Positions 77 to 25,193 of a DNA stretch of 25,193 nt are shown one piece after another; position 1 is the stretch's first letter; every line of letters starts with the position of its first letter. The notes below the pieces were generated by a model. The model made no database searches. It saw nothing but the letters and a program-made list of their open reading frames with translations, and was not told where the DNA came from. The translations under genes were made by a program, and so were the position numbers. Source of the DNA: Nannochloropsis salina CCMP1776 (lineage: Eukaryota > Sar > Eustigmatophyceae > Eustigmatales > Monodopsidaceae); assembly GCA_004565275.1 (NCBI GenBank), contig SDOX01000002.1, positions 46,865 to 72,057 of the forward strand, given 5' to 3'.

Positions 77-492
77 GTCTCCATCTGGGACCTGTCCGTG
101 GAGGAGGACGAGGAGGAGAAGAAACCCTCTGCCCTCCCTCTCTCCCACCTTCCCCCTCAGCTCCTCTTCGTCCATCAAGGGCAACAAGAAATCAAGGAGG
201 TCCACTTCCACGCACAGGTGGGGAAGAGGGAAGGAGGGAGGGAGGGAGGGAGGGAGGGGGGGAAGGAGGGAGAAAAGGCACGGGGAGTCGACTTTCAGCG
301 AGATAAATGAGCGAATGAACTGGCAAAGGCCGACCGCGCAACGTTGGGCGAGGTTCGCCTCCTCCTTTCTCCTTTCTCTTAGCGCCTATGATCCCCTCTT
401 CCCCCCCCCCCTTCTCTTTGCAGGTACCTGGGCTCCTCATGACCACCGCAGCGGACGGATTCAACGTCTTCAAGCCGGCGATCGGATTGTAG
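77..492 (+). CDS. GRWD1/Rrb1-like WD40 ribosome-assembly protein, C-terminal part (5' end outside window)
   Basis: Only the last two visible exons are present, 77-217 (47 codons) and 424-492 (22 codons plus TAG). They join in phase 0 across a 206-base intron. An acceptor at 75-76 shows that more exons lie before the window. The peptide reads VSIWDLSVEEDEEEKK, then LLFVHQGQQEIKEVHFHAQ, then VPGLLMTTAADGFNVFK. This matches the end of GRWD1 (yeast Rrb1), which runs from an acidic stretch through LLFVHQG and a final WD repeat ending in a short hydrophobic tail. In that family the protein is a WD40 propeller acting in the nucleus/nucleolus as a chaperone for a ribosomal protein (Rpl3) during 60S assembly. 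The function is carried over from the family; only about 69 residues are visible. RBBP4-like histone-binding WD40 proteins are related, but the LLFVHQG tail favours GRWD1. Confidence 0.85.
226..271. repeat. (GGGA)n tract near a splice donor
   Basis: Begins within ten bases of the donor of the last WD40-gene intron. The other end of the same intron is pyrimidine-rich (CCCCTCTTCCCCCCCCCC). Confidence 0.9.
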
Positions 493-6285: not shown

Positions 6286-7929
6286 TCATTCTTCTCCTCC
6301 CCTTTCCACCGGGGCGGTGATATCCCTCAACAATTTACGATTGATCCGATTGACCACCGCCAGCGACCAATACTTCCGCCGGCATACATCCCACCTCTCT
6401 GCCAAGCCTTCCGCCAGTGCCACGGCCTCCATCAGGCTTGTCTCGTCCCCCATCGTCTCGTACATGTCTATTAACAAGGCTCGGAGTGGTACACAGACCC
6501 ACCTTGCCGCCTCCCCCTCCCGCCCTCCCTCCCCCCCTCCCTCCCCCCCTCCCTCCTCGACCGCATTCACAAGCCGCTCCCGCCAGCCCGTTACTCGGTA
6601 CCCCGTTTCCCTCAGGTATCCGCGTAAATACATCCAAGCACTCTCATTATCTCCTAGTCTACCTTCCTTTCCTTCCCCGCCACCGCCCCCCCCCAGGCCG
6701 GCCCCCTCCTCCAGTACGGAATCCCATGCGTATGCCATCTCCCGTTCCCGAATGGCATCCGCTTTCCCTCCAACCCTCCCTCCCTCCCTCTCCAGATGGT
6801 AGGGAGAGAGCTCGTGGGTGTGCACGACGAACCATCGTTGGTTCCAGGCGCTGTTGTTGCTGGGAAAGGCAGACAGGGACAGAGGGAGGGAGGAAAAAAG
6901 GAAGTATGAGACCCTCCTTTCCCTTCGCCTCCCACCCGCCGTCTCCCCTTCTTCTTCCTTCCTCCTTCTTTCCCGACGAGCCCTTGATCCGTCTTTCCCG
7001 CCAAAAATTCCAGTGGCCTTCATGCGATCGTCCTGTTCGTGTCTCGTGGCTGCCCCTCGCGCCTGTTCTCCCCGTGCACCCCCACCCCAGCCTCCCCCCC
7101 CCTGGCCACGCTTACCGTCTGTCCTCATTGAGCAAGGTGTCAACGAATGCCATTTCCTCCTCCCAGCCTGCCTGGAAGGTTTTGAGAAGCCATTGCCGAT
7201 AGGCCCATACATGGTAGTTCTTGGCGTCCTTCCTCAAGGCCTGCGCCGAAATTTCCAGCTCCCCAGCCGGGTCCTCAGTCTCCGCAATAATGGTCTGCCG
7301 GTGAAACCACACCTGAAATTAAATGTGGTTGTTATTGTTAGGAAGCCATGAGGCGGGGAAGGGAGGGAGGAAAGGGGAAAGGGGGGAAGGGAGAAGACGT
7401 GCGAAGGGGAAAAGGGAACAACGGAGGGAAAAGAGAAGACAGCGGAAGCATTTCGCACGCATGGTCAGGCTTGTGGCCACAAACATTCCAGTTTCTCACA
7501 GAGAGCCTCGTGAGCAAGCAGACACACCTGATAGTTCTTGGGGTTTTCATCCGAAATACGCAGGGCGAAGGCCAGCTCCGCATCGTAAAGCTCCTCCACG
7601 GCCTCATCCATTTCCTTATCCCCCGCATTGCCCTGGGCTGTTGTTTCCGCTACCATTGCTTCCAAACAGCGTCGTCTCAGCCACCAGGCCGTGTAGTGTG
7701 CGGCATTCATTTCTATGACCTCCCCTGCTAGACCGTGCACGCGCCGTGACCGTTCCCCAGTGACCAAAGCCGCCCGCATGTAATCCGTGGCATCGCGGTA
7801 CTCGTCCGGATAGTCGATAGGGACCACGAGGGAGGACGCGGGGAGATCGTCTTGCGGGATAGGCGTGACATCTTGCCATTCGAGACGGTGGGAAAACGGC
7901 ACGTACATAGCTTGGGGGGAGGTCGGCAT
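6286..7929 (-). CDS. Protein farnesyltransferase/geranylgeranyltransferase type-1 alpha subunit
   Basis: Three exons, 7528-7929, 7116-7312 and 6286-6859, join in phases 0 and 2 to give 390 residues, close to the family length. This subunit pairs with a beta subunit and prenylates CaaX proteins in the cytosol. Five PPTA repeats are visible: HYTAWWLRR (78-86), NYQVWFHRQ (132-140), NYHVWAYRQ (167-175), NNSAWNQRWF (201-210) and NESAWMYLRG (271-280). WQDVTPIPQDD near the start matches the human WADIDPVPQND region, and RKYWSLAVVNR near the end matches RKEYWRYIGR. Two Gly/Glu/Arg-rich inserts (about 225-232 with 251-267, and 302-316) are absent from animal homologues and come from GGGA-like DNA. A strong 3' splice-site-like sequence ends at 7935, five bases before the ATG, so a 5' untranslated intron is likely. 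Rab geranylgeranyltransferase alpha is the alternative, but the domain layout fits FNTA better. Confidence 0.93.
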
Positions 7930-13125: not shown

Positions 13126-15092
13126 ATGCCCTGTCTACCGCTAGGTGATCGCAGCATAAGAGATCGTATCATGGATTCCGGGGAGGTGGAGCTTTTGGCT
13201 GGCTCCATGGCTACGAAGCACATCCCAACTTTTGAGGCAGGGCCTTTCACTGATGTTGTTTTTGACGACGAGAAGCCTCCCTCTTCCTCCTCCGCTCCAT
13301 CGGTGTCGTCCGAACAAGACTTCATGGACGATGACAAGAGGAATGCGAGAGCAGGAGAGGGCTCACTGAAGGCCTGTGCATCCTCCAGCCCGACTCCTGG
13401 TACCGATATATCGCCCTCCCGCACCGTCATCACCATCCTGGCGTGCATCGCTTTCCTCCTTCTAGGGGGCCTAGGTGGCATTATTGGCCCCTCTGTCCCA
13501 TCGTTAGCCTCAAAACTTGGCCTCCTCGAAACCAAATTGGCCGGTGTCTTCACGAGTCGTGGCCTTGGTTTCCTGGTGGGCTCCTTCTCCATGCCTTATC
13601 TCGACAAATACCTGCCCAAATACCTCCTCATGACGCTCTGCACCACCATTGCCGGCATCGTCACCTTCAGTGTCGTCTTTGCTCCCACCATCTCCCCGCT
13701 CCTCGCCCTCATGTTCTTGCAGGGACTGTCCTTGGCAGGGGTGGTGGTGACGGGCAACGCTGTGCTCGTAGAGGTGTGGGGGAAAGCGGTCGATCCTTAC
13801 ATGCAAGGGCTGCACGCCGCCTTTGGGGTCGGGGCTGTGTTGGGGCCCGTGGCAGTGGGCGGAATCGGCTACCGGGACGCATTTTTGATTTTTTCCACCG
13901 TCGCCGTTTTGCCCGTGGCGGGCGTGACCCTGGAGGAGATAGTATGGGGAGGGAAGGAAAGAAGACGAAGGCGGCGGCAGCAGAAGAAAATGGATAAAAT
14001 TGCCAGGGACACAGAGGAGGAAGGGCAAGAGGAAGATTTGCAGAGACTCGAGGAAGGACAGGAGGACGAGGCGCGGGTGCAAGTGGAGGAACGACGTGCG
14101 ATCATTTTGTGTGGGGAGAACCCTGTGGAAGACGCGGCGAGTACGTCGTCGGAGGAAAGCGGCCCGGAGGAAAGCCTCGAGACAGAGGCTCCCCCCCCTC
14201 AAGGAGAGGCGATTGGGAACCTCTACCGGGGCTTGCTCTCCTGCTTTTTGTTCCTCTACACTGGGTCCGAGGTTGGGGTGGGGGGATGGATCGCCACCGT
14301 CTTGTTATTACAGGGGGCGGTCAAGGACAAAGAAGCCGCCGCCTTTGTGGTGGCCACCTTCTGGGGGGCCTTAACGGCTGGCCGTTTCTTGGCGGTTCCA
14401 TTGGCGTTGAAGCTGAAACCGTCCCGGTTTCTCTTCTTACAGCTCGGCATCACCTTGGGGAGCGCTCTGTTGTTCCTAGGGGTCGATGGAGGGCGGGGGG
14501 GAGGGCGGGGAGAAGGGGGGCACGCTTCGCTGCTGGGAATGACGCTGGCCTCTGCGCTGTACGGCCTGGGCATGTCGTCGATTTTTCCCCTCATGATGAC
14601 GCTCCCAGGGGAGATGAATCTCCACCTGGATATGAAGAGCACCAGCCTCTTTGTGATCGGTGCGTGGCCCTCCCTCCCTCTGTTCCTCCCTCCCTCCCTC
14701 CCTCCCTCCGTCTCCATTCATGCCCCTCCTCCCTTCCTCTCTCCCTCCCTTCCTCCCTCCGTCTCCATTCATGCCCCTCCTCCCTCCTCTACCCTCTCTC
14801 CCCATCAGGTGCCTGTTTGGGCGAGGCCCTGGTCCCCTTGAGCATGGGTACTTTGATAGACAAGCTCGGACCCAACTGCTTTTCCTGGTTCATCCTTAGC
14901 ACCACCTTAGGTTTGTGGGTGTTGTATGGCGCAATTTTGTGGGTGGGGAGGGAGGGAGGGCGGGGGAGGCGGAGGGAGGGGGGCGAGGGAAAGGGAACAG
15001 ACGGGGTGGGTGGGAGAAGGCAGGGAGAGCGATGGGGAGGGAAGGAAGGGGGGCTGGAAGTGGAGGAAGGTAGGACGGTGACAAGCGCATAG
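13126..15092 (+). CDS. Major facilitator superfamily transporter (FucP/MFSD4-like)
   Basis: Two exons, 13126-14659 and 14809-15092, join in phase 1 to give 605 residues. About 100 soluble residues precede the first membrane helix (VITILACIAFLLLGGLGGIIG). Six helices follow, then a charged central loop of about 90 residues (about 274-362, with a run of Arg then Glu-rich sequence), then six more helices. YTGSEVGVGGWI after the loop resembles the helix-7 motif of the fucose permease/MFSD4 sugar-transporter group, so a sugar or small-metabolite substrate is a guess from family. The join restores TSLFVI-GACLGEALVPLSMG. The last 50 residues are Gly/Arg/Glu-rich and come from a GGGA-like tract running into the 3' flank. 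ATG 13171 is an equally reasonable start, 15 residues shorter. Confidence 0.85.
14701..14785 (+). repeat. 51-base tandem duplication within the transporter intron
   Basis: The segment containing GTCTCCATTCATGCCCCTCC occurs at 14710 and again at 14761, a period of 51, each copy embedded in CCCT-rich sequence. It makes up most of the 149-base intron 14660-14808. About 34 bases match exactly between copies (14701-14734 and 14752-14785). Confidence 0.9.
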
Positions 15093-15739: not shown

Positions 15740-18700
15740 TCAGAGTTCCTCCTTCGCCTTCCTTGCCGCCCCTCCTCCCTCCTCCACGACCTTCCCTTTC
15801 TCTAATACGACTTTGTCGCGTTGATTCTCGAGCTCGTTTTGCTCCACCCAGAGGGCGTGAAAGCCCCATGGGACCCGTCGAGGCAGCGCTACCGAGGCCA
15901 CCAACGCCTCCCTTCCTCCCTCCTTCCCTCCCTCCCCCCCTCCCTCCATCCTCCTCGCATCATAGACCCGAAACTCACTCATGTTTCTCGGATACGAATG
16001 GGTGAAGGTAAGCAAATAGCCGTCGTCCTCCTCCCTCTCCCCCCCGTCCTCCCGCCCTCCCTCCCGTGGCACAAAGATGACTTCCCCGCCGAACGTCCCT
16101 TCCTCATACTTGACTTCTGCGTAGGGCGCCCCTCCTTCTCCCCTCCCTCCCTCCAAATCTACCTTCACGAAGCCCTCTCCCTCCCCGTGCTGATTGAAGA
16201 CGGTCGCAAACATAAACCTGCTCTTCCTTCCTGCCTTTTTCTGGTTGATTTGTGGGAACTCCCATAGCCGCGGGTCGTGGGAGGCGGGGATGAGGCGGGA
16301 GTGGGCGAGGAGGCAGGAGGAGGAGGACGAGGAGGGGGGGGACGAGGAGGGGGGAGAGGAAGGAGGAGGAAGGAGGAGCGTGTATTCGTAGAGATGAGCA
16401 GCTAGAATGGAGAAGGAAGGGGAGGAGGAGGTGGGAGAGTCAGCGTCCTGCATGCAGCCACGTACGTCTCGTTTCCTTCCTCCCCCCCCGCATCTTCCTC
16501 CCCTTCCTCCCTCCCTCCCTCCCTCCCTCCCTCCGCACCTCGCGCGTCCATCTCCTCCTGCGTCCACTTCACTTCCTTTCCCGGACGGTCAAAGGTCCCA
16601 TCGAAATCCAGCTCGAAGTGCTCGAATCTGGACCATGCAGGAGCACGGGGGAGGGAGGGAGGTAGGGAGGTAGGTAGGTAGGTAGGTAGGGAGGGAGGGA
16701 GGGAAGAAGGAGCCGGAACTATTAGCTCGAGAGAGGAGGCTCATTTTTGGACCGCTCCCGTAATGTCCGGCCAACTTCTCTCTTTCCCTCCTCTTTCTTT
16801 TTTCCTCCCTACCTTTTCTCCTTCCTTCCCTCCCACCCTCCCTCCCTATTCCCTCCTTCCCTCCCTCCCTCCCCACCGTTGCGCCTCCAGGACGATTCGT
16901 CTTCCTCCTCCCTCCTCCTCCTCCTCCCACGCGTTTCCGAAATGGAAGACAAAGGAAGCAGGAATCGGGGAACCATCGCACATCTAGACAGGCAGGCAGG
17001 GAGGGAGGGAGGGAGGGAGGGAGGGAGGAGAGGTAGGGGGGGGAAGGAGGTACGTGAATGTGGGCAGCGACGGGTAATACAAGAAGACAATGAGAACAGG
17101 GGAGAGCGTAGGCGCAACAGAGAGAGGGAGGGAAGGGAGGGAGGAGGGAAAACGGGAGAGAGAGAGAGGAAGGAAAGGGGGGAGGAAAAGGAGGAAGGAG
17201 GGGGGAGGAGGACCTTGTCAATCCAGACGGCCTCCTCCGGTCGCGAGGCATTGAGGGGAAGGACGGCGAGGCGCGTTGGCTTCTGGGAATCGAAGCGGAA
17301 GAGTGAGGCGCTCCGGGGATGGGTGATGAGGTCCTGAGGGAGGAGAGGGAGGGAGGGAGGGGAGGGTGAAAATGAGCATCTCGTCGTGAAGTGCAAACGA
17401 AGAGATAGCACGCCCCTTCTGAAGTGCTTCCGACCACAAGGAAGAAGAGGACGTCGACGTTGCTACTTCTCCCTTCCCTCCCTCCCTCCCTCCCTCCCTC
17501 CCTCCTCCTCCCTCCCTACCTCTGGGCCACGTACAAGCCCCCCTCCAGGAAGACAGCGTGCTGGTGCGTAACGGCGAAGTCATGCCGTCATGCATGGCCG
17601 TTGGAAGTTGAGGGGCACTGTGGCTTCCTCCTCGCCTGAAGGGGGGGGGAGGGAGGGAGGGAGGGAGGGAGGAGAGGAGGAAGGGAGGAGGGAGGGAAGA
17701 GAGAGGAAGTGAGGGAGGTTCCTTGATCGTGAGAAGCGGGCATGAGATCGGAAGTGATAAATCAGAAGGAGGGACGGCAAGGGGGAGGAAGGGAGGGAGG
17801 GAGAGGGAGGAGGGAGGGAGGGAGGGAAGTGGGAAAGGCGGACCTCGCGCATTCATGCGGTAGAAGGAGAGATATGGCGGTGAGACAAGATCGTAGCCAA
17901 AGGCATAAAGCTTCTTCGTGTCTGGGTCGATCTAAAGGGGAAAAGAAGGGAGGGAGGGAGGGGAGGGAGGGAGTGATGGAGGGAGGGGAGGAAGGGAGGG
18001 AGGGACAATTCATCGTTCATCTCACTGTTACCCGCTCCTCCACTCCCCCCCTTCCTCCCCCGCCTCCCCGCCCTTACCTTCGGATGCGCAGTGAACCATT
18101 TCCCTTCCTTCCCCGCCTTGTGCACGCGTCCTTGCGTGCCGATCCTCCCGTTTTCTTCCGCGTGGAGAAGGTGGGGTTGGTCACCCTCGTGGAGGGCAAA
18201 GAGTCGGCCGTCGTGCCAGAGGAGGGCTGTGTTCGCGGTGTACATGCCCTGGAGGGGGGGAGGGAGGAAGAAAGGGAGGGAGGGAGGGAGGGAGGGTGGG
18301 CGGGGAATGCCACCACCGACACGGCTCCTTCTCACGACGCCCTTGCATCTTCTTCCACGCACATCACTCGCGTCGATGATGCCGAGAAGCTTCCTCATGC
18401 CCTCCACGGCCGTCAAGACCAAAGCGCCCAGGCCCCTGAGGTCGCCGAATTTGTTCGCCAGAGCCCGTCCCGCCGCACGTTCTTGCTGAAAGAGAGCAAG
18501 GAGGGGGGGTGGGGAGGTGATGAAGGGCAGGGGGTGCGCGGGGAAAGGACGGAGAGGACGAGAGTGTGTGAAAAGAGGACGGAGGAATATGAGAAGGACG
18601 GGACAGAGGGAACAAGCTTTGTCCCTGGAGGACAAAGCTTGTCCAAATTCAAACTCAAATTCAAATTTTCAAAAAAAGAGAGGGGACGAGCGGTGCCTCC

Positions 18701-19844
18701 TTCGTGTCAGTGGCGGGGTATGCGCGGATGCCCGGGAGGCAGGGTCACGCGCGTGTTTCCTTGCCACTTGCCTTTCAATCTGGCACTGCCATAGAACCAG
18801 CCCCTCTCATCCCACCTCCTTCCCACCCTTCTCAGGGCGGGAAGGAGTGGTCGCTGGAGTGGTATTGCAACACAGTGCCCACGCTATCCCCTCCCTCCCT
18901 CCCTCCCTCCCTCCCTCCCTCCCTCCCTCCCTCCCTCCCTCCTACCTGCAGAATCGGCGTCTGCACGAATTGACCCGAGTAATTGGCGGTCTGCGTGCCG
19001 GCATCCACGTGCACCGCGTGGATATAGCCCGAGCCGTCGAACCTACCATAGGAAAGGTCGATCCAGAGGAAAACGGGGTGTCAACGTCACTGAGCACCCT
19101 CACCTAGACCCGTATTTCCCCCCGGGGGCGGAGCAGGCGGGTATCCCATCCGAGAGTATCCCTCAATAGGACTACGACGGTATACAACAATACATCTATA
19201 TATAATTGTATATATACCCTTCCTTGCCAAGCTGTTCCCCCCTATTCTTGACCAGAACCCGTCCTTCTTCCTTTTCTCGACGCATGTCTCCCACGAAGAG
19301 AGACTTCTTGCCATTTTTTTCTGTGCATCTATCCCTTGTTACGCTGATCCCTTGACTGTTGCCTACCAGTGATATCCTGCCGATATAAAGGCTGGATTCG
19401 GCCCGTTGCGTGCGAATAACCCGGTGATCTCCGGGGGCAATTTACCCTCTGATACGGGGATGTTGGCCACGAACAGATCTCCATCCACCGGGGCATAATT
19501 CCCCCACAAGAAACGGTTGCTCTCACCACGTGGTATCTGTGTACGGGGGTGTGTGGTTGGTGAGTGCTGGCCCTCGCGTAAATCAGGAAAACTAAGCCCG
19601 CCACTTTGTCTCTTTGTCTATTCCTCCCACTCCCTTGAATGCTTTTACTGAAATATCGACGTACCGTTTCTGATCCTTGCAGCCAGAATACCCCGGACTC
19701 AGTCATGGACAAAAGCGCCCCCAACGCACTGCGTACGAGTGGCCAAATACTTCCCATGAATGATCTACAACACGATACATGTATGAGGAGACGTGAGTCC
19801 AAGAAAAACAAAGAACGAATCAATACGAGGCAAGGAACCGTCAC
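15740..19844 (-). CDS. Carotenoid cleavage dioxygenase (CCD/RPE65 family), eleven exons, exon 7 shifted in frame
   Basis: Exons in transcript order: 19665-19844, 19367-19536, 18946-19042, 18363-18485, 18078-18248, 17844-17931, 17520-17635, 17214-17333, 16877-16983, 16539-16627, 15740-16401. They sum to 1923 bases (640 codons plus stop) with compatible phases. The family is a non-heme iron beta-propeller that cleaves carotenoid or apocarotenoid double bonds. Motifs: GNYAPVDGD, GLFARNGPNPAF, GYHWFDGSG, FGDLRGLG, ANTALLWHDGRL, AFGYDLVSPPYLSFY, EFPQIN, EEDDGYLL, VPWGFHALW. The four iron-binding His lie at AHPK (about 245), THDF (about 294), FHFGNAW (369) and GFHA (602). The HDF part of exon 7 is one frame away from both neighbouring exons. 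A spare G at 17585-17586 and a missing G in the run at 17538-17543 would explain this; otherwise a stop falls in exon 7. Exon 11 carries Gly/Glu and Ser/Pro inserts. The start is uncertain: ATG 19844, or 19757 just before a hydrophobic stretch. Substrate and cleavage position are unknown. Confidence 0.92.
16648..16700. repeat. GGGA tract grading into (GGTA)5
   Basis: Within dioxygenase intron 9 a GGGA tract is interrupted by five GGTA units (16669-16690) and then returns to GGGA. One substituted repeat unit appears to have been amplified inside the older array. On the transcript it forms the pyrimidine-rich 3' part of the intron. Confidence 0.9.
18612..18642. repeat. Perfect 13-base inverted repeat with 5-base loop
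   Basis: ACAAGCTTTGTCC (18612-18624) and its exact reverse complement (18630-18642) flank a 5-base spacer in dioxygenase intron 3 (18486-18945). They are followed by a short array of CAAATT/CAAACT units to about 18670. The RNA of either strand would form a strong hairpin. Function is unknown. Confidence 0.9.
18888..18943. repeat. (CCCT)n tract at a splice donor
   Basis: About 14 near-perfect units. On the dioxygenase transcript this is (GGGA)n starting right at the donor of intron 3 (GTAGGAGGGAGG). Confidence 0.95.
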
Positions 19845-20476: not shown

Positions 20477-22660
20477 ATGGATCAGCTGGGAGACTTGGAT
20501 CATGAAAAACTCATCACGGCGGGCTTGGTCACGCAGGGGGTGAGGGAGGGAGGGCAAGAGGGAGGAAGGAGAGAAGGGTGGAGAGAGGGAGGGATTGAAG
20601 GGAAAAACGAATTATTGGGCATTCGAAAGATGTTTACGAAGTAGGCGGGGCACGATTGTCCCCAAAATGCCACAATCAGACGGATTACGGCAGGAAAGCG
20701 GGCAAGAACACTGTTTGTCAGCACGGTGAAAGCGGCACTTCACGATCATAGCAGCAGATGCCATGGTACTTACCATGACGCACCCCTTCCATCCCCGTCT
20801 CACAGGTCTTTGTCCTCTGCTACACCATTTGCTCCTTCGTCGTCGCCAGCACCGCCAGTACGTACCGTTTCCCTCCCCCTCCTCACTCCCTCCTCTTTCC
20901 CCCTCTCCTTCTCGGCCTCATCCTCCTCTCTCTCCCTGACTTTCCCTCGCTCCAAGACATGGGATTCAATGCCGTACTGACAGCGCTGCTCTATATATTC
21001 TACGTGGCGGGCACTTACCATGTCCTACAGCGGTCGAAAATGCCATTGGCGGTGCGTCATTCGGAGGGAGAGAGGGAAATTGGGAGGGTAAGAGGAAGGA
21101 AGAAATTGCCTGGAAGGACCCTGATTCAATCGATCGACTCACTCTGACGCCACCTCCACGCTTCTCTCTTTCTTTTACGGTCCTGCCCTTCCCTTTCCCT
21201 CCCTCCGCTCCTTCTACCAGGTGGGATTCGTGTTGGGCGTCTCGGTCATGATCACCTTCCTCTCGCTTATGACGGCCATTTTCTGGGTGAGGCAGGGCGG
21301 GAGGGAAGGAAGGGAGGATTTTATCGGAAAGCTAGGACGGCCACGTGCATGGAGTGCTTTGGCCTCCTGTGCCCGCACGCCTCGACTAACCCTTACCCTG
21401 GGAGACTTTATTTAGATGATTACAGCGACTCCTTTACTTGGATGATTACAGCGACCCCTCTGTCTCCATGCGTGAGACCGACTGTCTTTGTAGCGTCCCG
21501 GCTCTAGGGCCTCTTTCATTAACCCTCTCTCCGTCCTTCCCCCCCTCCCTCCCCCCCTTCCTCCTCCACCGCAGGGTCAACTCGCGAACTGCTCCCCTGG
21601 CTACTACGATATCAAGAGATACTCGTGCACGGTAGGTCTGAATGGGAGATAGTCAGGGCCGGAGGTTCTTGAGTAATTGAAGGGAGTGGGAATAGGTTGA
21701 CGCGGTCTCTGCAGACCGAAGGCCTTTTCCCAGAAAGCTCTTCGTGCTTCTCCTGGAGCACGCCGTCAAAGTCTGGTTGCTGGGAGGGAAAAGGGAGCGA
21801 AAGGAGACAAAGAAGGGGACCGAGCTGCCTGTGAAGAGGCTTCCCACTATCCTTTCTGACCTCCCCTCCCTCCCCCCCCCGTCTCTCAGAACCGTAGCGC
21901 CTACAGTGCCACCTGCGCCTTCGCAACCCTGCTCTTCCTTGTTCAGGTTTGTGCATTCCATATTCGCTGCCTCGCATTCCCCCCCAACACCCCTTCCCTC
22001 GGAAGAGACCTAGCTCTCGTGGTCATGCTATTTTGTTAGGGTGTCTCCAGGAAGCTTTCCCTCCCATCACAAGGCACGCTTGCCTGGGGAGGGGTGTGGA
22101 TAGGATGGGGAATGAATTCGATAACCTCGATGATTTCCTTCTTTGAAACGAATATTTCACCTCTATCACGGTCCCCACTTTGACCACTGGCCTCCTCCTT
22201 TCCTCCCTCCCCCCCTTCCTCCCTCCCTCCCTCCCTCCCTCCCTCCCTCCCTCCCTCACTCACTCCAGCTTGTTTTCACGTCAGCCTTAGTCCTCTGGCG
22301 GGACGAGTTCATTCAAGACAGCAGCGCCTACGATGACATTCATGGTAAACAAATCCTACTTGCCTTCGCATTTCCTCCTTTTCCACCCCTTTTCCATGAA
22401 TAAAGTCCCCTCTCCTTTCCTGTTCTGCCCGCATCGTCCTCTTTTATTTTGGTGTTGTGTTATTTATTCCTCCCCCCTCTCCCTCAAATATTGCTCCCTC
22501 CTCTTTCCCCTGATACCTATCTTCCTACCAATTAATTCCTTCCTTCCTACCATGTTTAGGGGCCGGTGGTGCGAGCAGTAGCAGTGCCGCTGGCCTCCCT
22601 GGATACGAGGGGGGGACTCAACAGCCTTCTTACAACCAGTCGAGCACAGCAGATTTATGA
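20477..22660 (+). CDS. Four-transmembrane MARVEL-like protein, eight small exons
   Basis: Exons 20477-20539, 20806-20857, 20957-21051, 21221-21286, 21575-21631, 21890-21946, 22269-22344 and 22560-22660 sum to 567 bases (188 residues), with phases 0,1,0,0,0,0,1 all compatible. The start MDQLGDLDHEKLITAGLV is soluble. Four hydrophobic helices follow: VFVLCYTICSFVVAST (about 22-37), MGFNAVLTALLYIFYVAG (40-57), VGFVLGVSVMITFLSLMTAIFW (71-92), and SAYSATCAFATLLFLVQ joined to LVFTSALVLW (114-140). Between helices 3 and 4 is a Cys-containing loop (NCSPGYYDIKRYSC), presumably lumenal, with a possible disulphide. The tail is acidic, then Gly/Ser/Gln-rich and short. This is the MARVEL/synaptogyrin type of layout seen in vesicle membrane proteins. 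Family assignment rests on topology, not on a diagnostic motif, and trafficking function is inferred. Confidence 0.8.
22201..22259. repeat. (CCCT)n tract at a splice acceptor
   Basis: A TCCC array of over 50 bases forming the pyrimidine stretch of intron 6 of the MARVEL-like gene. The acceptor AG follows at 22267-22268. Confidence 0.95.
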
Positions 22661-23536: not shown

Positions 23537-25141
23537 ATGCTCCCACGGGTTTTCCAGCGGACCCGTGTTTCCTTTACCTCCGCAATTCCGACGCTTTCTC
23601 GCAGAGTTGTCGGCTCATGCCCACTAGCGGCGTCTACTCACAGCGTCAATCGCGAGGAGGTTAATACCACAACCAGGAAACCCTACGCCACGTCCGTCTC
23701 GAAAGAAGCGACAAGGCATGCACACGCTCCCGTCGACGACACAGCAACATCGACAACCTTAGCTGGTGCAGCCGGCGTGTCAGGTGTCTGCGATGAACCC
23801 GGCAAAAGCAATTCACAGCTAAGTTCCGATTCGTTCCCGGAGGATATAGTGGCACATTTAGATAAGTATGTCATCGGGCAAGAGGAGGCCAAAAAAGCCA
23901 CGGCCATCGCTATGCGCATGCGTTGGCGTCGAAACCAGCTCCCGGAAGATTTGCGGGCGGAAGTGACGCCCTCAAATATCTTAATGAAAGGACCCACTGG
24001 GACGGGCAAGACCGAGATTGCCAGGCGTCTGAGTGCACTGGCCGAAGCCCCATTCATCAAAGTGGAAGCCACGCGATACACGGAAGTGGTGAGTGAGGCA
24101 GTGGGTTGCTGTTTTCGTCCGGATAGAGCCGCGACAAGGACCATGGCAACAGTCACCGTCACACCCATGCCCTCCCCCCTCCTCTTCCTCTTTCCCTCCC
24201 TTCCCCCCTTCCTCTTTCCCTCCCTCCCGTCAGGGTTTCGTGGGCGCCAACACCAGCGACATGATCAAGGGTCTCCTGGACAACGCCGTGCGCCTAGAGC
24301 GGGAGCTGGAGAAGAGGAATGTGGCGGCGGAGGCCCTCGCCAAGGCCGAGACCAAGGTCCTCGACCTCCTCAAGGTATGTCGAGCTCCCTGCCCTCCCTT
24401 CTTCCCTTCCTCCCCTCTCTCGTCCCCTTTATCGGACCTGTTTCCTTTCTTACCCTTACACCTTCATTCCCTTGCTCTGCTTTTCCTCTTTCCCACCCTT
24501 TCCATCCTTTCATATCTTCTCATCCTGCCACCCTTTCTGTTCCCCCTCTTATATACACATATATACATGTACTGTCTCGTCCACCCCTGTCCATTTTTCT
24601 CTCTCCTTATCCATATCCCTCTCCCGCCCTCCTTCCTCTCCCTGCGGCTCCTTCGTTTCTCCCTCCCGCCTTTTCGCGGTCAATTTCTCCCCCTCCCTCC
24701 CTCCCTCCTTCCGCCCCTCCCTCGCCCATTTCTCCCCTCCTTCCCCTCCAGCTAGGAAACCCCAAGAGCCTGAGTTCCGAGCAACAACAAGATTTAAGGA
24801 GCCGTTTGCGTGGAGGCGAGTTTGACCATTACACCGTCCGCGTTCCCACCCGAGAGCCCCGGTCGCCCTCTTCCCCTTCCTCCCTCCACCCCCTCTCCGA
24901 CTTGTTGGACGGCTTGGACCTGGGGAACATCAATATGGGCCAAGGAGGCTTCGTCACGATCGAGCGAGCCCCGGGCGCCCCCGGGGGGAGGGGGGGAAGG
25001 TGGGGGGGAAGGGGGGCGGGGGGGAGAAGCAGGTCCTGTCGGTCAGGAAGGCCTTGGAGCGATACGTGGAGGAGTACGAGGAGGCCCTGATGAATGAGGA
25101 GGAAGTAATCATGCGCGCCAAGGAGAAGGCGGAGAATTGCG
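23537..25141 (+). CDS. hslU: HslU (ClpY) AAA+ ATPase of the HslUV protease, mitochondrial type; 3' end outside window, exon 3 shifted in frame
   Basis: Exons 23537-24088, 24234-24374 and 24752-25141 are visible; a donor at 25142 shows that more follow. HslU unfolds proteins and feeds them to the HslV peptidase. Residues 1-27 ([20 protein letters not shown] then SRR) look like a mitochondrial presequence. The AAA+ domain begins at [20 protein letters not shown]. It has Walker A GPTGTGKT (152-159), then [13 protein letters not shown], and across intron 1 the pore motif GFVG (GYVG in bacteria). Exon 3 starts in the I-domain ([14 protein letters not shown]) and should end [19 protein letters not shown] then AKEKAENCG, just before Walker B. 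That last part is one frame off: one G appears to be missing in the G-runs at 24977-25022. One added G restores both the sequence and the phase-1 donor. ATG 23447 would add 30 residues. Confidence 0.93.
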
Positions 25142-25193
25142 GTGAGGGAGGGAGGGAAAGAGGGGAAGGAGGGAGGGAGGGAGGGAGGAAGGA
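25142..25193 (+). repeat. (GGGA)n tract at the donor of HslU intron 3
   Basis: The intron opens GTGAGGGAGGGAGGG and stays GGGA-rich to the end of the window. This is the same donor-side placement seen in the dioxygenase introns. Confidence 0.9.

Follow-up and report, generated by a model that had tools for sequence, protein, structure and literature searches.

Short GC-rich introns of the type of human LCAT intron 4 carry runs of G just inside the 5' splice site (donor) and C/T-rich sequence before the AG of the 3' splice site (acceptor) (PMC2481429, PMC5778605). G triplets beside a 5' splice site promote its use (PMC5778605), and G-rich and C-rich enhancers work in combination in a human intron whose pyrimidine tract is weak (PMC2481429). 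Euglenozoan non-canonical introns have a G-rich start and a C-rich end able to pair with each other (PMC12621601). In flies and some other eukaryotes, purine motifs are under-represented before acceptors, as read from the strand asymmetry of ordinary sequence, and selection against spurious 3' splice signals or acceptors shapes the pyrimidine tract (PMC10946897). A comparable layout is found in Nannochloropsis salina CCMP1776, where introns in a stretch of 25,193 nucleotides (C55:46865-72057, in a 26.5-Mb genome of 103 contigs; referred to as the window) start with arrays of GGGA or end in arrays of CCCT. For N. oceanica, a genome of 29.3 Mb with 54.01% GC and 2.87 exons per gene has been described (PMC6610115). 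A literature search on Nannochloropsis polypyrimidine tracts or intron splicing found no paper, and among the papers listed in wider searches none describing this repeat layout was found by title and start of abstract, the nearest being the euglenozoan study (PMC12621601).

The G/C asymmetry of the LCAT intron 4 type is also seen in the ordinary introns of this genome. Unlike that type, the tracts described here are tetranucleotide repeats of up to tens of bases, they are regionally clustered, and at a minority of donors it is the opposite strand that is found. The motifs tested in LCAT lie upstream of the pyrimidine tract. Introns of two diplonemids mostly lack GT-AG, whereas the 42 introns examined here with both ends in hand are all GT-AG, which is partly a choice of the curation, as non-GT-AG introns were not sought. 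A further difference from the euglenozoan introns (PMC12621601) is that the ends in N. salina do not pair better with their own partners than with swapped ones. The under-representation of purines before acceptors is shared with ordinary sequence in other eukaryotes (PMC10946897), but in N. salina it is displayed by a spreading microsatellite.

Array orientation at each intron end

An ab initio gene finder was weak in repeat-rich DNA and introns there were therefore curated by eye. The curated set comprises 44 introns from 13 genes, 24 of them in the window and 20 in loci L028 and L030, so that three of nine repeat-rich loci (the window, L021-L023 and L026-L030) contributed; L023 is N throughout. 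Pfam searches covered both strands of L030 and the plus strand of L028 and L021, the last of which yielded nothing usable. The set excludes dioxygenase intron 1, intron A of a MARVEL-like gene, for which no donor was found, cullin intron 4, which has an N gap, methyltransferase intron 2 and borealin intron 2, whose ends are unclear, and a kinase frame break near L028:8520. Donor counts refer to 44 introns and acceptor counts to 42, and kinase intron 2, with an N gap inside, was omitted from duplex and fold tests (n = 41). The dioxygenase, an RPE65-family carotenoid-oxygenase-like gene, was detected by six-frame Pfam scans at about 15.7-19.5 kb of the window (minus strand).

On the sense strand, CCCT arrays were present at 29 of the 42 acceptors and GGGA arrays at none, with 13 acceptors free of arrays (C versus G, p = 3.7e-9). 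Donors carried GGGA in 18 cases, CCCT in 7 and no array in 19 of 44 (binomial p = 0.043). After removal of the dioxygenase introns and of all introns named in an earlier reading of the window (the original prediction), 9 G, 5 C and 17 array-free donors remained (n = 31), together with 20 C and 10 array-free acceptors (n = 30). The orientation rule is strict at acceptors in the curated set and only a tendency at donors. These end-specific counts support the proposal of the original prediction that a spreading repeat has its orientation within introns set by the transcribed strand. Under a looser array definition, C arrays in acceptor halves (30 introns) end at a median distance of 7.5 bases from the AG, the place of a pyrimidine tract. 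All 18 G-donors have a purine at +3 and G at +5, and therefore the array either lies beyond the core that pairs with U1 or stands in a register preserving it; among C-donors, 5/7 have a purine at +3 and 5/7 a G at +5, and among array-free donors 16/19 and 17/19, respectively.

In order to see arrays in all compartments of the curated genes, those of at least three units were counted on the sense strand. The ratios of G to C arrays were 9:2 in exons, 17:6 in donor halves, 1:28 in acceptor halves, 4:0 in 3' flanks and 0:1 in 5' flanks, where the exon figure includes one G and one C array in a possibly intronic methyltransferase stretch and one G array after the kinase frame break. The donor half is indistinguishable from exon plus 3' flank (17:6 versus 12:1, p = 0.38). 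What stands out is the acceptor side and not the donor side.

A similar asymmetry was observed in 37 ab initio introns from a repeat-poor 220-kb stretch of contig C1, which contains 2 GGGA and 4 CCCT arrays under the looser definition; positions 300-500 kb of C1 hold 0 GGGA and 3 CCCT arrays of at least three perfect units, compared with 17 and 17 in the 25-kb window. At the donor side of these introns GGG outnumbered CCC in 18, was outnumbered in 7 and tied in 12 (p = 0.043), and at the acceptor side CCC outnumbered GGG in 27, was outnumbered in 4 and tied in 6 (p = 3e-5). The repeat exaggerates a GGG/CCC asymmetry that is already present in the introns of this genome.

Splice-like words near arrays were counted genome-wide without gene models, each against the same pattern reversed. 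As variable-gap patterns count one array repeatedly on the strand where the array leads, the counts used are those anchored on the splice-like word, the assignment of which count is anchored being our own reading of the match listings. CAGGTR preceded a GGGA array by no more than about 12 bases 116 times (reversed, 34) and a CCCT array 52 times (reversed, 13), so that the excess of donor words is about 2:1 in favor of GGGA (82 versus 39, z = 2.9), near the curated 18:7. The test is driven in part by composition, because the reversed controls also favor G (34 versus 13). TGCAGG followed a CCCT array at up to 25 bases 33 times (reversed, 13) and a GGGA array 38 times (reversed, 35); acceptor-like words are thus enriched only after CCCT. 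Unanchored counts point in the same direction, both for donors (222 versus 76 by G arrays, 75 versus 17 by C arrays) and for acceptors (70 versus 23 after C arrays, 60 versus 73 after G arrays). The longer word AGGTRAGT was not usable, with 24 matches in 9 distinct places near GGGA versus 33 reversed, and 3 places versus 2 near CCCT.

The eight introns named in the original prediction (dioxygenase introns 5, 7, 9 and 10, the last intron of a WD40 gene, two of the MARVEL-like gene, and an HslU donor) start with GT and a G-rich stretch or repeat essentially where they had been placed. Their acceptors had been described as ending in CCCT or C-rich sequence, and the seven in hand are indeed C/T-rich before AG, but intron 10 has no strict CCCT array. 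The gene names MARVEL-like, HslU and WD40 were taken over from that reading, and MARVEL-like introns C and D were taken as its introns 3 and 4. Introns of the window and one exonic array are as follows.

16402..16538, minus strand: dioxygenase (RPE65/CCD) intron 10, GGGA donor, C/T-rich acceptor without a strict CCCT array
16628..16876, minus strand: dioxygenase intron 9, GGGA donor, CCCT/CCTA on the acceptor side
16984..17213, minus strand: dioxygenase intron 8, CCCT-type at both ends (counter-example)
17334..17519, minus strand: dioxygenase intron 7, GGGA donor (position uncertain, frame break in the preceding exon), CCCT acceptor
17636..17843, minus strand: dioxygenase intron 6, CCCT-type at both ends (counter-example)
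17932..18077, minus strand: dioxygenase intron 5, G-rich donor, CCCT acceptor
18249..18362, minus strand: dioxygenase intron 4, donor without array, CCCT acceptor
18486..18945, minus strand: dioxygenase intron 3, long GGGA donor array, C-rich acceptor without a strict array
218..423, plus strand: last intron of the WD40-like gene, GGGA donor, C-rich acceptor
20858..20956, plus strand: MARVEL-like intron B, CCCT-type donor, C/T-rich acceptor (counter-example)
21052..21220, plus strand: MARVEL-like intron C, G-rich donor, CCCT acceptor
21287..21574, plus strand: MARVEL-like intron D, GGGA donor, CCCT acceptor
24375..24751, plus strand: HslU-like intron 2, CCCT-type at both ends (counter-example)
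25142..25193, plus strand: HslU-like intron 3 donor, GGGA array, acceptor beyond the window, where the next 10 kb are N
14660..14808, plus strand: MFS gene intron, CCCT-type at both ends (counter-example)
6860..7115, minus strand: PPTA gene intron 2, G-run donor (not scored as a GGGA array), CCCT acceptor
15907..15947, minus strand: sense-GGGA array in a dioxygenase coding exon, arrays not being confined to introns

GGGA arrays inside coding exons of the window are located at 6523-6558, 6774-6793, 15907-15947 and 16129-16154, and encode Gly/Arg/Glu-rich stretches in otherwise ordinary enzymes.

Independence of donor and acceptor arrays

The original prediction described introns bracketed by complementary arrays, but bracketing as a unit is not supported. 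In the curated introns, donor and acceptor arrays occur independently: a CCCT acceptor is present in 11 of the 16 introns with a GGGA donor and in 18 of the 26 others, and Fisher tests for co-occurrence at four array thresholds gave p = 0.23, 1.0, 0.32 and 0.11, from loosest to strictest. The trend is against co-occurrence, with 15/20 versus 20/22 at the loosest threshold and 5/12 versus 18/30 and 1/8 versus 16/34 at the two strictest. Predicted pairing between the first and last 60 bases was likewise no stronger for own partners (-34.1 kcal/mol) than for swapped ones (-35.7 kcal/mol; permutation p = 0.82, n = 41). Moreover, 7 of the 44 donors carry the CCCT strand and are unable to pair with a CCCT acceptor. 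Six of the seven corresponding junctions translate open (MFS intron 1, dioxygenase intron 8, MARVEL-like intron B, HslU intron 2, sulfate transporter intron 2 and kinase intron 3), and the seventh, dioxygenase intron 6, is open as far as a frame break in the next exon.

The predicted order, GGGA followed by CCCT at 90-120 bases, was commoner genome-wide than its reverse, but barely so (372 versus 312 overlapping matches). At spacings of 51-150 bases, the local order of arrays was GC in 14, CG in 17, GG in 17 and CC in 9 cases. Array order is uninformative without gene models, because an acceptor-exon-donor sequence reverses the order in multi-intron genes. A paired-end hairpin as organizing principle found no support in the swap test or in the 2 × 2 tables, and this evidence does not justify retaining the claim that intron ends are paired.

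Explanations for the layout

We consider it most probable, at about 0.68, that the orientation of arrays is filtered by ordinary splicing needs at each end separately and that the complementary look is a by-product. A (GGGA)n/(CCCT)n microsatellite would spread through particular regions of the genome. Upstream of the 3' splice site only the pyrimidine strand would be tolerated, because CCCT would serve as or replace the polypyrimidine tract, which the purine strand would destroy. In exons, donor halves and 3' flanks a preference of about 3:1 would hold for the purine strand, plausibly because a C-rich tract ahead of an AG would make a spurious acceptor and, at donors, plausibly because GGG runs beside the 5' splice site are compatible with, or aid, recruitment of U1. 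The complementarity of the two ends would then arise from this separate filtering. The orientation at each end, the independence of the ends and the same asymmetry elsewhere without the repeat are direct observations, from which we infer that selection is the cause, that spurious acceptors are the cost and that G runs may have an enhancer role. An Rfam search for an alternative U1 fitting G-rich donors gave no match in this genome and equally none in 14 control genomes, so that it is uninformative.

Several points weigh against filtering at each end. U2AF prefers U over C, and CCCT may therefore be a weak pyrimidine tract. The donor bias in the curated set reaches only p = 0.043, and genome-wide the fold enrichments of donor words are alike for GGGA (3.4) and CCCT (4.0), while the two acceptor excesses differ only weakly (z = 1.6). 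MARVEL-like intron E has a single GGGA array in its acceptor half, ending 92 bases before the intron end. In addition, a single reader picked the splice sites by eye, relying on open frames and protein domains and not on transcripts, GT-AG ends were a selection criterion, and introns within one gene are not independent.

The most probable of the alternatives, although we regard it as unlikely, is that transcription-linked mutation or repair, yielding purine-rich sense strands, causes the donor bias and that the acceptor alone is constrained by splicing. The purine-strand excess in exons, donor halves and 3' flanks, its lack in acceptor halves and the likeness of donor halves to exon plus 3' flank are what it would lead one to see; the sole 5'-flank array has the C orientation. 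However, directly before AGGGAGGGAGGG a donor-like GT was found 255 times and another base before T 90 times, compared with 164 and 109 in the reversed control (Fisher p = 0.0003), and therefore arrays and donors are not placed independently. Repeat-poor introns, in a comparison limited to introns, show a donor GGG excess too.

Alternatively, RNA G-quadruplexes formed by the donor GGGA arrays might hold the donor open or attract factors, an explanation for which we see a low probability. When folding allows quadruplexes, one is predicted in the minimum-energy fold of 10/16 G-donor, 0/7 C-donor and 3/18 array-free-donor introns, but this prediction follows from the repeat itself, and exons and 3' flanks carry sense-GGGA arrays too, so that nothing about them is specific to donors. 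Quadruplex-capable sequences are reported to be common near donors of mammalian introns, whereas a quadruplex overlapping a donor of Bcl-X is proposed to be inhibitory (PMC5778605).

That the arrays are retained because they pair, a pre-mRNA stem joining donor to acceptor and aiding splicing, appears improbable to us. The arrays are complementary, and the predicted base pairs between first and last 60 bases amount to a mean of 33.6 in the 16 G-donor introns, compared with 0.5 in the 7 C-donor and 7.7 in the 18 array-free-donor introns. Yet pairing with the own partner does not exceed swapped pairing, the arrays do not co-occur beyond chance, and the longer ones tend to do so less than expected (p = 0.11). 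A stem would also bury the pyrimidine tract, whose predicted unpaired probability is 0.18 in G-donor introns versus 0.91 in C-donor introns. In human LCAT intron 4, a similar G/C stem was judged non-contributing, as splicing stayed near wild type after a swap expected to abolish it (PMC2481429). Formation of a stem is possible, but selection for one is not indicated, and hairpins or quadruplexes, physically possible as they may be, are not supported as the reason for the layout.

Finally, it is very improbable that the introns are copies of an inserted introner or miniature inverted-repeat transposable element (MITE) with GGGA/CCCT inverted ends, an origin from MITE-like insertions having been suggested for the inverted G- and C-rich intron ends of two diplonemids (PMC12621601), since an array-masked all-against-all BLAST of 42 introns gave it no support, revealing no shared interior and 8 between-intron matches at E up to 1 (best E 0.049, 11-27 bases), and since many introns have an array at one end only.

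Host genes and regional distribution

Removal of the introns gives open frames over the translated junctions of the sulfate transporter, kinase, cullin, MARVEL-like, thioredoxin-like, MFS, prenyltransferase, borealin, SDR, WD40-like and methyltransferase genes and of HslU introns 1 and 2, where the WD40-like and methyltransferase stretches are short, with 2/3 frames open, so that their open frames say little. Pfam scores rise on splicing from 85.6 bits in a single frame to 154.8 bits for the kinase, from 72.2 and 52.8 to 139.3 and 145.9 bits for the cullin, and from 45.5 and 30.7 to 151.4 bits for the N-terminal half of the RPE65 gene. For the spliced MARVEL-like protein, Pfam gave no family at E 0.01, and the name HslU is loosely supported, its best AAA match of 19.5 bits lying below the cut-off. 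Six-frame Pfam scans indicate DJ-1, lipoate ligase, thioredoxin-like, prenyltransferase alpha, SDR, MFS and AAA (HslU-like) genes as neighbors in the window. All 42 two-ended introns are GT-AG, which was one of the criteria of selection; 40/44 donors carry G at +5 and 39/44 a purine at +3, and the acceptor side is at least 70% pyrimidine in 35/42, intermediate in 7/42 and at least 70% purine in 0/42.

Dioxygenase introns 2-6 and 8-10 each read open when translated. The exon between introns 6 and 7 contains a frame break (about 17592-17579, minus strand), in what we take to be a conserved His-Asp-Phe region, and this is either a pseudogene or an assembly error. This break makes the donor of intron 7 uncertain, and a GT at 17530 suits the downstream frame better than that at 17519. 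The frame of the HslU-like gene breaks too, in a very G-rich stretch of its third exon (about 24970-25035, plus strand), downstream residues continuing in another frame.

Repeat-rich regions seem to lie toward contig ends. Among the matches listed, all (GGGA)4 and array-pattern places on C1 (1,072,967 bases) are below 265 kb or above 754 kb, and array-pattern places on C55 (1,343,167 bases) are within 160 kb of an end; some listed places look interior, such as C57:410 kb (others reach 1.41 Mb) and C72:602 kb (others reach 1.34 Mb). TTAGGG repeats cap the right end of C1, and TTAGGG stretches also occur away from contig starts, for example at C2:76440, C3:96415 and C12:64484.

Open frames of at least 1500 bases are about 3.5-fold fewer in repeat-rich DNA (0.36 per 10 kb in 82 kb, the window with L021, L022 and L026-L030) than in repeat-poor DNA (1.27 per 10 kb in 220 kb, L001-L020, L024 and L025), whereas those of at least 600 bases are not fewer (4.62 versus 3.91 per 10 kb). 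At least 44 introns in the 13 curated genes stand against 37 confident introns in 53 predicted repeat-poor genes, two counts that come from different methods, with curated genes partly chosen for having introns. Repeat-rich regions are thus seemingly intron-richer, which is a lead and not a result. It is conceivable, if rather doubtful, that the repeat supplies ready-made splicing signals, a G-run donor flank or a pyrimidine tract, and so drives regional intron density; genes in the repeat-rich outer parts of chromosomes would then gain or keep many introns and the repeat-poor interior would stay intron-poor. A coupling of repeat and intron density between regions is possible and is the part worth following. 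If the difference holds, repeat-rich and repeat-poor genes of this genome would form a natural contrast in which to ask how repeats relate to intron gain.

Microsatellites are usually treated as noise, but the one described here seems to double as a splicing signal, and the orientation in which the repeat is allowed would read out, site by site, what the spliceosome tolerates.

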